Source: Ectothiorhodospiraceae bacterium 2226
GTDB lineage: Bacteria; Pseudomonadota; Gammaproteobacteria; GCA-013348725
DNA length: 64,000 nucleotides
Reading direction: 5' to 3'
Assembly: GCA_013348725.1 (NCBI GenBank)
Contig: CP054689.1
Location: forward strand, 546,501 to 610,500
The number at the start of each line of letters is the position of its first letter. Position 1 is the first letter of the stretch. Under the pieces are notes generated by a model. That model ran no database searches. It was given only the letters and a program-made list of their open reading frames with translations, and was not told the origin of the DNA. Of this stretch, positions 57,192 to 63,116 are shown piece by piece. The position numbers and the translations under genes were made by a program.

Positions 57192-58199
57192 CTAAGCCGC
57201 GTTGACAAGTAAATTCCGCAACCGGCGGACTGCGTCCGGCGCCGGCGGCGACAGTATTCCGTGCCGCCTTCGCAATGACTCCCATCCGAGCCACACCACC
57301 GAGTGCTTTTGCTTCCCGCATGGCGCTGACGCCTGAAGTCCGAGCGTCGTCGACTTGACCGCCACCCCTTCAAGCCAGGCCGCGAGGATAGCCAGCGCGT
57401 GTATAAGCAGCAGCATTTCGAGGCGTGGCGCATCGCGGGTCAGCGTATCCTCGAACGCCGCCCCGAATCGGTGAGACTTGAGGTCGCGGAAGGACAGTTC
57501 GATCTGCATGCGCTTGCCATAGAGCGCGGCAATGTGGGCGGCCGGCAACTCCGACAAGGAGCGCGAGTACGCCAGAAGCCACGGTTCACGTTCACGTTTG
57601 GCAACCTTTCGCGAGTAGCCGCCCTTGGCGCGGGTGCCAAGTCGGGTGCGGTGCACTCGCCCCTTCGGCGCGCGACGTACAAGTACTAAGCAGCAGGCAA
57701 AACATTTGCTCTCGGTCAGCTCCACTTCACCCAAGGAGACGGCCCTGCGCGTCGCTTGGGCGTACAGATCCCTAGAGGGCATCCACGGCGTGTCGCGGGA
57801 AAAGCGAACGCGGCTGCGGTGGCGCACCCGCCCTAACCAATGCCAGCCCAACTCCTCTACCGCGTGGAACCAAGGAACACGAAACCCCGCGTCCGTCACG
57901 ACGATCGGGCGCACGCCCTTGGGCAGTACCGCGTGTAGCCGCCGCAAGAAGGCCGCCTCCACCGCCGGGTTGCCCAGCAACCTCGTCGGGTGCACCTCTT
58001 CGTACACTGTCATGGCGCGTCCGCGCGCGACCACCGATACCCGAAGGAGATGCCAGCGACCGTCACGTTTGAGCTCGCTCCAGTCGACGATCAGCACTGG
58101 CTGTGGCACGCGTAAAAGCCAACGTGAAGCGCGCTGATAAAAGGCCGTCCGGTGAACCTGGACGGAGCGATTACTCAACAGCCGATCGAAGCGCTTTGG
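57157..58199 (-). mobile_element. IS4-family fragment, 5' end missing
   Basis: It contains most of a transposase and its 3' terminal region. The other end is cut by the IS3 element at 58200. Confidence 0.8.
57192..58199 (-). pseudogene. IS4-family transposase, 5'-truncated
   Basis: About 335 codons remain, from PKRFDRLLSNRSVQ to the natural stop. The DDE residues are visible: Asp in IVDWSEL, Asp in VTDAGF, and Glu in the YREK-like IELSFRDLKSHRFG. The N-terminal DNA-binding part is lost where the IS3 element begins. The first ~8 residues of the present open frame come from IS3 sequence. Confidence 0.85.
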
Positions 58200-58234
58200 T
58201 AGTCCCCCCATTCTTGGTCGCACGCAGAAGTAGA

Positions 58235-59062
58235 TTAGGCCGCTAAGGCCATTTTCTGCTTTGGGGTGATACCTCCCAAGCCCATATTGGGCCGTTCATT
58301 GTTGTAGGTCCACAGCCAGCGGGTCGCATAATCGCGCACCTCCTCCAGCGTGTCGAACAGGTGCTGGGCGAGCCAATCGTATCGCACCGTGCGGTTGTAG
58401 CGCTCGATGTAGGCGTTCTGCTGCGGTTTGCCGGGCTGGATGTGAAGGATGTCGATGCCGTTGCGTTGGGCCCAGCTGAGCAGCGTGCCGCTGATGTACT
58501 CGGGCCCATTGTCGCAGCGGATAGCCAGCGGCTTACCGCGCCACTCGATGACCTGCTCGAGCGTGCGGATTACCCGCTCGGCCGGCAGCGAAAAATCCGC
58601 CTCGATGGCAAGGCCCTCGCGGTTGAAGTCATCGTTGACGTTCAAGAGCCGAAAGGCGCGCCCGTCGGCGAGCGCGTCGTGCATGAAGTCCATCGACCAC
58701 GTTTCGTTGATGGAGCTTGGCTCGGCCAGAGGCTGGGGCTTCTCGCGTACCAGGCGTTTCTTGGGCTTGATGCGAAGATTAAGCTCAAGCCAGCAGTAGA
58801 TGCGGTACACGCGCTTGTGGTTCCAGGGAAAGCCCTTGACGTTGCGCAGATACAGATAGCACAGCCCGAAACCCCAGTTGCGGTGATTGTAGGTGAGGCG
58901 CACGAGCCAGTCGGCGATGAGCGCGTTCTCTGTCGCCAGCACCGGGCGATAGCGGTAGCAGCGCTCGCTGACCTGGAACAGCCGGCAGGCGCGGCGGATC
59001 GCCAATCCCTGATCCCTCACCGCCCACTGCGCCATCTCCTTCCGTTGAGACGGCGCTACCAT
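58235..59062 (-). CDS. IS3-family transposase OrfB (second complete element)
   Basis: The 275-residue catalytic part runs [14 protein letters not shown] to [11 protein letters not shown]. Its rve-type core has Asp in WSMDFMHD, Asp in IRCDNGPEY and Glu in [12 protein letters not shown]. It starts in the -1 frame relative to orfA at a run of seven A on the coding strand (59062-59068). That is a likely programmed frameshift site giving OrfAB. Confidence 0.92.
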
Positions 59063-59322
59063 TTTTTTGCCATCGCCTCCCGCAGGATCTCGGCGTCCAT
59101 CTTGGACTCGGCGTACATCTTCTTCAGGTGCCGGTTCTCCTCCTCCAACTCCTTGAGTCGGCTCATCATCGAGGCGTCCATGCCGCCGTACTTGGCGCGC
59201 CACTTGTAGAAGGTGGCGGTGCTGATCCCGTGGGTTCGGCACACGTCCGGCACCGCCCGTCCGGCCTCGGCTTCCTTCAGGATCGCTAACACCTGGCTGT
59301 CACTGAACCGCGATTTCTTCAC
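59056..59322 (-). CDS. IS3-family transposase OrfA (second complete element)
   Basis: The 88-residue protein [19 protein letters not shown]... has a helix-turn-helix ([20 protein letters not shown]) and a coil ([18 protein letters not shown]). It is typical of the IS407-like branch of IS3. Confidence 0.92.
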
Positions 59323-59387
59323 GTAGAATCTCCTCGTGGGTGGAAAATTCTACTTCTAAACGCGACCAATTTCTGGGGGGATTACCG

Positions 59388-59940
59388 GGCCGTCTCCTTG
59401 GGTGAAGTGGAGCTGACCGAGAGCAAATGTTTTGCCTGCTGCTTAGTACTTGTACGTCGCGCGCCGAAGGGGCGAGTGCACCGCACCCGACTTGGCACCC
59501 GCGCCAAGGGCGGCTACTCGCGAAAGGTTGCCAAACGTGAACGTGAACCGTGGCTTCTGGCGTACTCGCGCTCCTTGTCGGAGTTGCCGGCCGCCCACAT
59601 TGCCGCGCTCTATGGCAAGCGCATGCAGATCGAACTGTCCTTCCGCGACCTCAAGTCTCACCGATTCGGGGCGGCGTTCGAGGATACGCTGACCCGCGAT
59701 GCGCCACGCCTCGAAATGCTGCTGCTTATACACGCGCTGGCTATCCTCGCGGCCTGGCTTGAAGGGGTGGCGGTCAAGTCGACGACGCTCGGACTTCAGG
59801 CGTCAGCGCCATGCGGGAAGCAAAAGCACTCGGTGGTGTGGCTCGGATGGGAGTCATTGCGAAGGCGGCACGGAATACTGTCGCCGCCGGCGCCGGACGC
59901 AGTCCGCCGGTTGCGGAATTTACTTGTCAACGCGGCTTAG
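59388..59940 (+). pseudogene. IS4-family transposase C-terminal fragment
   Basis: About 183 codons from VSLGEVELTESKCF to the stop, identical to the C-terminal half of the transposase at 57192. It keeps the Glu of the catalytic triad but neither Asp. Confidence 0.85.
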
Positions 59941-60448: not shown

Positions 60449-62251
60449 TTATACATAACCAGGAAACCGCTTCTCTATAATAACGCGGAGGGCGGGCGGA
60501 ACGTCGCCCCACGAGTCACCCCATCCGTATGCTACCTTGAACGCTTTGAACGGCTTCTCGCTAGATGGCGCGGGATACCCCAGAACGTCTTCCATGCACT
60601 CTTCTAGCACAACGATTCGATCTTGATCTCCGACAGCCTCCGCTATCGGCTGGTTGAACTTCTCGGCATCCGCGACGCCACCGTCGCGGTCATGCATCAC
60701 CCGAAAATCGAGGTCAAGCGCCCGAAAGTATCTCGCCACGCCGATGATAGATGCCTTACCCCTCGCCTTAATCACCTCAAAATCCGCGGCGATCTTTGTT
60801 CTTGTATCGTCTGGAACTCGTTTCAGCGCCTCACGCAGCACGATTTCCTCTGTATCACCTTCCACGACGATTACAGTCTTCGTGAAAAAAGCTCGCGCTA
60901 CATAGTCATCGATGCGCAGAAGCATTTTCACATATGACTTGTCGTTCTCACTTAGTTCACCGAATTTGTCGCTCACATTGAAGGCGACGGCATTCGTATG
61001 CCCACCAGCATGACGAAAACGGTTTAGCACCTGCCTTGGTTTTCTTGAGAGGTCAATTAGATATGGAGAGTGCGTCGTGGCCACAATTTGGGAATGTGTG
61101 CCAGAAAGCTCGTAGATCGAGTCACGCATCTGGTTGGCTGCGCTCGGATGCAAGTAGATTTCCGGTTCCTCAAACCCAATGATCAGGCTACGGTCTGACT
61201 TGTCTTCGCGTTGCGCGAGCCACCTTTGCCTGAACCGCAGCATCCCGAAGACCGCTGCTCGCACCATCCCGGTGCCTTGGTGGCTAACGGGAGTCCTAAT
61301 GTTGCTTGACATGGCGATTTCGAAACTTGGCACAAGCGCCTTGCTAGGGTCACTGAGATCTGCTGTGGCATGAAGAACAGAATCAGGGAACACGCGGCAC
61401 AAGACTTGGTTCAGTTCGGCCATCATCTTTCCGAACTCTGAGTCGGCATCTGATGGATCTAACTCTTTCGCGAGATCATTAAGGTGCTTCTGCGCCTGTT
61501 TGTAGCTCTCCGACTTTTCACGGACCTCCTCAAAGAGCTCGCCTAGCGTCTTTCCGAGAACCCCCTTTTTGGGATCGTCGATTTCGTAAGATGCTGCTTC
61601 CGCGGGTATCTGGAGAAATCGTGGGAGGCGACTGAGGACGTTTCCTGGTACCCCACCGGGATTGTGGAACCACTCTTCTTCCTCGCCGAGGTCCCACAAC
61701 TCGTCTATGGATTCGAGAATGATCTTGTCTTTTGCTGCAACATTCTTTCCAAGGTCATCAAACAACTCCGCAAACGCCTGTTGGCTTGCTCCTGCGGCAA
61801 TAAACTCCTGGGGCGACTTGCACGCGACAAACTGCGGAAATAGCGTGCGCTTCTTTGACTTCAGCTCAACGACAACATCTTTCCCAAGTGGATAGCTTTT
61901 TCGGTAGTGAATGGATATGCCGCTCTCGCCCGACCCTTCCGGTGGTTGATAGGCGAACGTTCTCCCCTTAAACCCTCTCCAATTGGAAGACTCTGCCGGG
62001 ACGTTTCGGAACTCCGCTTCAATGACGATACAGTCCGACACCACTTTTGTTTCTCCGGTCTCGGCGTCCTTTTCCGAATAGTATTCGGCTTCTGGAATTC
62101 GCTTATTTGCCGAGAGCAGGTAGTTGATCGCGATCAGAACGGAGCTCTTCCCGGAATTGTTGGGACCTATACAGAACGTGGCGTCCCCAAAAAGGATATC
62201 CACAGAACGAAGCCGGCGAAGTCCGTCAATATGAAGCTTATGCAATTTCAT
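60449..62251 (-). CDS. OLD-family ATPase with TOPRIM nuclease domain
   Basis: The 600-residue protein has an ABC-type ATPase (Walker A GPNNSGKS at 29-36, Walker B LIIGFEEPEIYLHPSA, switch His in ATTHSPYLID). It is split by a helical insert (about 150-300). A C-terminal TOPRIM domain has Glu in VIVVEGDTEE and the DxD-like MHDRDGG. OLD-family proteins are nucleases, many acting in phage defence. ATG 62251 has AGGAAA upstream; 13 earlier codons were rejected. The HEPN-like gene is 100 bases upstream on the same strand. Base composition is clearly more AT-rich than the core genome. Confidence 0.9.
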   Translation of the reverse strand: MKLHKLHIDGLRRLRSVDILFGDATFCIGPNNSGKSSVLIAINYLLSANKRIPEAEYYSEKDAETGETKVVSDCIVIEAEFRNVPAESSNWRGFKGRTFAYQPPEGSGESGISIHYRKSYPLGKDVVVELKSKKRTLFPQFVACKSPQEFIAAGASQQAFAELFDDLGKNVAAKDKIILESIDELWDLGEEEEWFHNPGGVPGNVLSRLPRFLQIPAEAASYEIDDPKKGVLGKTLGELFEEVREKSESYKQAQKHLNDLAKELDPSDADSEFGKMMAELNQVLCRVFPDSVLHATADLSDPSKALVPSFEIAMSSNIRTPVSHQGTGMVRAAVFGMLRFRQRWLAQREDKSDRSLIIGFEEPEIYLHPSAANQMRDSIYELSGTHSQIVATTHSPYLIDLSRKPRQVLNRFRHAGGHTNAVAFNVSDKFGELSENDKSYVKMLLRIDDYVARAFFTKTVIVVEGDTEEIVLREALKRVPDDTRTKIAADFEVIKARGKASIIGVARYFRALDLDFRVMHDRDGGVADAEKFNQPIAEAVGDQDRIVVLEECMEDVLGYPAPSSEKPFKAFKVAYGWGDSWGDVPPALRVIIEKRFPGYV

Positions 62252-62351
62252 GTTCTGGATTTCCTGCCCGAAACTCTTACAGCCTGCCAAGGGGCGGCGC
62301 GAGCGAAGCGGGCGTCACAATGAGCGATAGCGCACGAACTTGCGCACCTTG

Positions 62352-62897
62352 TTATGCCTCTTCTATGCGCTGGATTACCCGACTGGCTAATTCAACATAC
62401 TCTTGCGCCGAGTCTTCATCGATTTGTGCATCTGAAAGATGTACGGCCTCGTTTCGTGTTCTTCTTAGCCGTCCAAGCATTTCGAAAACGCCTTTCCCGA
62501 GACTTCCATAATCGAGCGTATGGAAGTGTAACTCTCGCATTGTGAATGGCTTATCCTTTTTTACTTCAATTCCGTGACGTTCGGCATACTTGAGTAGCGC
62601 GCCTTCTATACTCAGCCAAGCTTCAATTATCGCCCCACGTGGGGAGAGTTTAGCTAGTTGAGATGATTGGCTTTTGAGATAAGTGGTGTTTTTGTAATCG
62701 GGAAGAACCTTTTCCGCTTCTTTCTTTGCCGCTGCCAATTCATGCCGAAATTCCACTTCGGTGTCGTTGTGGCGTATGCGGGTGATTTTCGAGAGAAGCC
62801 TGCCGACTTCTTCTCGAAGCACAACTGCAATTACGACCACCGCTATTGGCCATGCGAGCGATTTAACGAGTTGTGATATGAAGGTTAACCAATCCAT
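62352..62897 (-). CDS. Membrane-anchored HEPN-like protein
   Basis: The 181-residue protein has one N-terminal helix (about 12-28) and a cytosolic coil (50-85). Its C-terminal helical domain of DUF4145/HEPN type has GAIIEAWLSIEGALLKYAE and the motif LRRTRNEAVH; RNEAVH (148-153) fits the HEPN RNase pattern R-x4-H. Not every R-x4-H helical bundle is a nuclease. The gene precedes the OLD gene on the same strand, so they may act together. The ATG lies at 62897; the ribosome site is AT-rich and weak. Confidence 0.75.
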   Translation of the reverse strand: MDWLTFISQLVKSLAWPIAVVVIAVVLREEVGRLLSKITRIRHNDTEVEFRHELAAAKKEAEKVLPDYKNTTYLKSQSSQLAKLSPRGAIIEAWLSIEGALLKYAERHGIEVKKDKPFTMRELHFHTLDYGSLGKGVFEMLGRLRRTRNEAVHLSDAQIDEDSAQEYVELASRVIQRIEEA

Positions 62898-63082
62898 GAT
62901 TTCTTTTTGTGCATAACGGCTACGGAAACTCGCCGTCGTATTGGGAATAAGGGGCGAAGATCGTGAGGTGGCATGCTCGGGGCGTCATCGCCAGCCCTTC
63001 TTGTGATTTTCGTCACATCATCCCGCGCGAGCGCCACGGATTCAAGCGCGACCTCCTCCAGGCGACCGACCGCCCAAAGAAA

Positions 63083-63116
63083 AAGCCGATGATGGCGTAA
63101 CCGCCATCATCGGCTT
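63083..63116 (-). terminator. Rho-independent terminator of the flavoprotein gene
   Basis: A perfect 15-bp stem, AAGCCGATGATGGCG (63083-63097) with its complement at 63102-63116, has loop TAAC. On the minus strand it is followed by TTTTTCTTT. It lies 46 bases past the stop at 63162. Confidence 0.92.

Follow-up and report, generated by a model that had tools for sequence, protein, structure and literature searches.

In the 64,000-nucleotide stretch of DNA analysed here (the window), the gene for a small membrane-anchored HEPN protein is an integron gene cassette, single and stranded, and it lies beside what its sequence suggests is an ordinary stand-alone class 1 OLD nuclease gene (Table 1). 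The two are very probably independently acquired neighbours, one carried on a mobile cassette and the other standing alone, and their adjacency most likely arose when cassette insertion placed two independent genes side by side. The initial annotation had proposed a defence pair. Its outline of the locus is borne out: the ORF list and Pfam matches place an OLD-type ABC ATPase/TOPRIM ORF next to a membrane HEPN-like ORF on the minus strand, the region is AT-richer (GC content of 0.467 for the HEPN gene and 0.523 for the OLD gene vs 0.655 for window positions 1-60000), and insertion sequence (IS) debris lies beside it. What it overlooked are the integron cassette ends that bound the HEPN gene, with the attC end positioned between both genes. 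Neither gene is a chance ORF, because both proteins have real relatives.

Table 1. Features of the HEPN-OLD locus, in window positions.
Feature	Position	Strand	Basis or remarks
Membrane-anchored HEPN protein, 181 aa	62352..62897	-	ORF, alignment of 56 members, AlphaFold2 model, HEPN structure matches, phrog_18019
Class 1-type OLD nuclease, 600 aa	60449..62251	-	Pfam, PADLOC Old, Ts OLD 6p74, alignment
Integron gene cassette with HEPN gene, 637 bp	62280..62916	-	Spans TTATGC through the last G of attC
R′ core site GTTATGC	62911..62917	-	Marks the 5′ cassette boundary; 13 nt upstream of the HEPN start codon
attC site	62280..62357	-	R″ 62357-62351, L″ 62346-62339, L′ 62291-62285, last G 62280
IS debris	57192..59940		Transposase-like ORF, inverted partial copy and rve-type ORFs

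Both features taken here to define a cassette, a (G)TTRRRY-like 5′ end complementary to the R″ at the 3′ end and an attC site with L″/L′ pairing and an extrahelical base, are present. Reverse-complemented, the GTTATGC that precedes the HEPN start codon is identical (7/7) to the GCATAAC at the stop codon, a match that shuffled flanks achieve at a frequency of 0.002 and that is found for 2/381 ORFs of the window. Within the attC site, L″ (TGCGCAAG, of the form TGC[G]CAAG) and L′ (CTTGGCA) pair at 7/7 positions with one extrahelical G, in the style of an attC bottom strand. Folding of the 96-nt region as DNA, a stretch that lacks its own R′ partner, gave no unusual stability. At the 3′ end, the junction G/TAAGAG (the slash marking the cassette end) mismatches the R′ consensus GTTRRRY and also the minimal GNT; a GTTRRRY junction after the 3′ attC is a property of an intact array and not of the cassette itself. 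This junction is degenerate or rearranged.

The cassette is regarded as stranded because the genome has no intI above the cut-off and other sites with the same R″ start are not attC-like. The best match to the integrase profile TIGR02249 reached 82 bits against a cut-off of 265, short of what a complete integron requires, and sub-cut-off matches to this profile also occur in 14/14 control genomes. A genome-wide search for more GCATAACAAG sites returned two others, sharing the R″ start and both without attC shape.

Cassette ends are also found among relatives of the HEPN gene. A first attC detector proved too strict (17 hits vs 2 expected), overlooking clear sites in Salinivibrio, and was replaced by a test of R′/R″ complementarity; a stricter variant requiring GTTRRRY wrongly left out sites of the GTTATGC type. 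At the 7/7 level, the complementarity test was passed by 16 of 83 HEPN-family loci, a set in which the window is counted and a few places were fetched twice, vs 1.0% for flanks re-paired between loci. Full attC sites are legible at several of these loci. On a Salinivibrio replicon, the HEPN relative is flanked by complete attC sites on both sides, and in Marinobacter nauticus a 44%-identical relative resides in a cassette row of small same-strand genes that adjoins an integron-integrase remnant broken by frameshifts.

Besides integron cassettes, members of the family are found at prophage edges, in a P4-like satellite and in a P2-like phage record, and 23 viral contigs carry a member, many of them near a contig end. 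The relative in Klebsiella spallanzanii (locus L093, 6001-6588) lies beside a gene that resembles a P4-type primase by our own reading, apparently within a P4-like satellite; E. coli genomes gave no match in a DNA search with a Klebsiella relative. A same-strand neighbour within 60 bp of the HEPN gene is seen downstream at 9/50 loci and upstream at 7/46, and since such tight neighbours are few, the gene is most likely a one-gene unit. Neighbours at family loci include the defence-related families QatA, PifA, HEC-06, PD-T7-4 and AbiJ N-terminal domains, given here as occurrences, with no claim of enrichment.

The architecture of the HEPN protein consists of one N-terminal hydrophobic helix (mean hydropathy of 2.1 over residues 9-27), a long helix and the HEPN domain. 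Across the alignment of 56 family members, the W16-P17 pair within the hydrophobic helix is invariant. The HEPN domain carries R148-N-E-A-V-H153, which conforms to the R-x4-6-H pattern, and the R-x4-H form is kept in 50/56 members; R148 (54 members), N149 (51) and H153 (49) rank with the most strongly conserved positions of the domain. The absence of the motif from 6/56 members, or about 10%, indicates that catalysis is not universal in the family. In the AlphaFold2 model (pLDDT of 86.9), residues 70-181 best match 2hsb (Z of 9.3, rmsd of 3.3 over 107 residues), in agreement with a HEPN fold, followed by other solved HEPN structures such as that of sacsin (Z of 8.0) and Gifsy-1 HepS (Z of 7.4, rmsd of 2.3), although Z values of this size alone are weak evidence for a helical bundle. 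The top seven structure matches are all HEPN-type proteins, with both HEPN toxins and defence nucleases represented among the fold matches. Foldseek alone returned no match to the model below an E value of 0.001, and the assignment rests jointly on the VIA-align ranking, sequence profiles and the motif. Pfam recognises DUF4145 in 27 of the 56 members, RiboL-PSP-HEPN in 13 and HepT-like in 5, and finds in the window protein alone a weak resemblance to DUF4145/HEPN. In PHROGs the family is phrog_18019, which has no assigned function; in PADLOC the window protein matches no family and its relatives give scattered weak matches. The earlier description of a membrane-anchored protein with an R-x4-H HEPN motif is confirmed by this combination of motif, hydrophobic helix and fold.

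The N-terminal membrane module also occurs on other proteins. In one family locus (L031, 1501-2148) it is joined to a response-regulator-like domain, and in three others (L045, L052 and L053) it precedes longer C-terminal parts in HEPN-bearing proteins of about 300 aa. Such fusions at L031 and at L045/L052, together with the six members from which the motif is gone, would suit a membrane-anchored assembly or regulatory domain that is neither a nuclease nor a defence protein. This alternative is unlikely, though still to be weighed, given that the motif residues are among the best conserved in the domain and that HEPN toxins and defence nucleases are among the fold matches.

A tentative reading is that phrog_18019 represents an undescribed stand-alone defence based on a membrane-sensing HEPN RNase, of a size suited to integron cassettes, that travels on P2-like prophages and P4-like satellites as well and whose N-terminal module (MDWxxFI..SLAWP) recurs in combination with other effector domains. 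The N-terminal helix would anchor the protein in the inner membrane, with the HEPN domains dimerising in the cytoplasm. The trigger would be infection, possibly signalled at the membrane by a phage structural component or by phage entry; once active, the protein could cut RNA via R148 and H153 and thereby stop growth and phage production. An RNase-defence mechanism of this kind is possible, falling a little short of probable. The common membrane module could conceivably point to a set of effectors that sense one membrane event.

Several described systems bear comparison with this family. A HEPN-TM system of phage-inducible chromosomal islands (PICIs) was reportedly described by Fillol-Salom in 2022. 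As characterised where PMC11087260 and PMC12948488 cite it, HEPN-TM is likewise small, combines a HEPN domain with a transmembrane helix and resides on mobile elements. Tha, a tail-activated protein of S. aureus prophages (PMC11087260), similarly has a C-terminal HEPN domain with R-N-x3-H, is encoded by one gene and travels as prophage cargo, but it has about 300 aa, no discernible N-terminal domain and no reported membrane helix. The suggestion of an infection-triggered RNase at the membrane draws on the example of Tha and other HEPN defence proteins (PMC11087260). The family is a credible candidate for a one-gene antiphage defence. The HEPN domain of Gifsy-1 prophage HepS (PDB 9oij) superposes at an rmsd of 2.3 over 104 residues, a comparison made by structure, the two sequences being only 14% identical.

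Phage-defence integron cassettes were reportedly described by Darracq and by Kieffer in 2025. By the accounts of them in PMC12409362 and PMC13092281, they too are small one-gene cassettes with an attC site that place defence on integrons, whereas the window holds a single stranded cassette without an integrase, and its defence role is putative. By the account cited from PMC12409362, about a tenth of Vibrio cholerae chromosomal integron cassettes protect against phages, which makes a defence role of the cassette-borne HEPN protein plausible.

The neighbouring protein matches Pfam AAA_15 (1e-37) and OLD-like_TOPRIM (1e-11) and the PADLOC family Old (1e-58), with GajA models far lower. The earlier choice of a TTG start at 62290 (613 aa) has to be given up, as that codon lies inside the L′ box of the cassette attC; translation from the ATG at 62251, the likely start, gives a protein that begins MKLHKLHIDG and aligns from residue 1 with its relatives. 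A Walker A motif (GPNNSGKSS), GFEEPEIYLHP (containing EEPE) and THSP are present, and the Toprim residues E464, E468, D521 and D523, invariant among relatives, correspond to those named in PMC7049728. Among solved structures, the closest is that of the Thermus scotoductus class 1 enzyme (Ts OLD, 6p74; E value of 2e-18), well ahead of GajA. Like Ts OLD and P2 Old, the protein unites an ABC ATPase with a C-terminal Toprim domain carrying metal-binding acids, and keeps the metal-A residues E, D and D together with further E ligands; it is encoded by a single gene, with IS debris downstream and no UvrD/PcrA/Rep-like helicase gene. Such a helicase is also absent from the annotation downstream of the relative at L122, and class 1 OLD genes are stand-alone (PMC10568477). 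Differences from Ts OLD include a cysteine in place of the metal-B serine, the lack of a counterpart to R487 in the pairwise alignment, a length of 600 aa as opposed to 525 aa, and the location of some relatives beside CBASS genes. By analogy with P2 Old, an ATP-binding dimer might sense the state of infection and the Toprim domain degrade DNA.

Three other OLD-containing systems were considered and set aside. In Gabija, OLD would be accompanied by the helicase GajB, and here the neighbour is HEPN with no adjacent helicase ORF and GajA models score far below Old. PARIS pairs the ATPase AriA with a separate Toprim/DUF4435 protein, AriB, while in the window the Toprim domain is in the same chain as the ATPase and HEPN matches no PADLOC family. 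The partner differs from GajB and AriB, as had been noted. The model for the class 3 OLD of Retron Eco8 type reached 50.6 bits against a cut-off of 250, and the gene is bordered by HEPN and IS debris, with no reverse transcriptase next to it.

Relatives of the OLD gene occupy other settings. On a Raoultella plasmid (L122; NZ_CP021328 391950-405740), a 60%-identical relative follows a CD-NTase-like/ThiF/JAB/SAVED row, which is a type II CBASS-like locus, and precedes umuDC. A chromosomal relative (L041) also lies directly after a SAVED gene, and this CBASS-OLD neighbourhood near umuDC-type genes is a recurring one (L122 and L041; 60% identity). A 50%-identical OLD lies beside morphogenesis genes in an f237-type filamentous Vibrio phage genome (L018, 5001-6794). 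The window's own genome has a second, distant OLD-like ORF (C1:1407540-1408622, within an open frame of 576 aa) of about 24-27% identity.

The OLD gene might itself be a second cassette, following the first in an array that has since decayed, which would make the two genes an array and not chance neighbours. G/TAAGAG is one base off GTTAGAG and is followed, after about 22 nt, by the ATG at 62251, which is the spacing of a cassette start. However, no R″ or attC follows the OLD stop codon, where IS debris is found instead, relatives at 59-84% identity lack cassette ends, and 1.8 kb would make a large cassette; this alternative is accordingly improbable.

Two independently acquired neighbours also best describe how the families are distributed. 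Of 398 Pseudomonadota genomes, 13 carry HEPN and 5 carry OLD (E ≤ 1e-30), and the window's genome is the only one with both. Across 18 HEPN-bearing genomes or records, one other has a weak OLD match, on a separate contig. A co-occurrence check had been set beforehand as the refuting test for the pair: no OLD was found near 82 HEPN loci (931 kb; best match E of 0.5) or at the 23 viral HEPN loci; conversely, 6 OLD loci contained no relative of HEPN. HEPN and OLD are not a conserved pair, and the proposal that they form one is unsupported, with the families rarely co-occurring (1/398 genomes) and an attC site separating the genes. The proposed PADLOC search identifies OLD as Old and leaves HEPN without a family.

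A functional defence system made up of both genes, in which the membrane HEPN would serve OLD as its sensor or effector, is very improbable, for although the genes lie 100 bp apart on one strand, are both low in GC and have no terminator-like site between them on that strand, the families do not co-occur elsewhere and each occurs alone, attC lies between the genes and their GC contents differ. Co-transcription at the window locus is nevertheless possible, given the short same-strand gap. The locus is left with an ordinary class 1 OLD gene beside a stranded cassette from a widespread, uncharacterised membrane-HEPN family: an apparent two-gene defence system drops out, and in its place stands a one-gene candidate that can be tested and that occurs in many phyla. 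Adjacency created by mobile cassettes can imitate an operon, and a check for attC is advisable before defence pairs are named.

Two further elements flank the locus. A strong terminator-like hairpin (15 pairs) at 63083-63116 follows a dihydrolipoamide dehydrogenase-like gene and would shield the cassette from transcription arriving from upstream. Within the IS debris, the C-terminal half of the transposase-like ORF (57192-58223, minus strand) recurs as an exact inverted copy (59398-59940, plus strand), and rve-type, IS3-like ORFs (58235-59322, minus strand) sit between the two.
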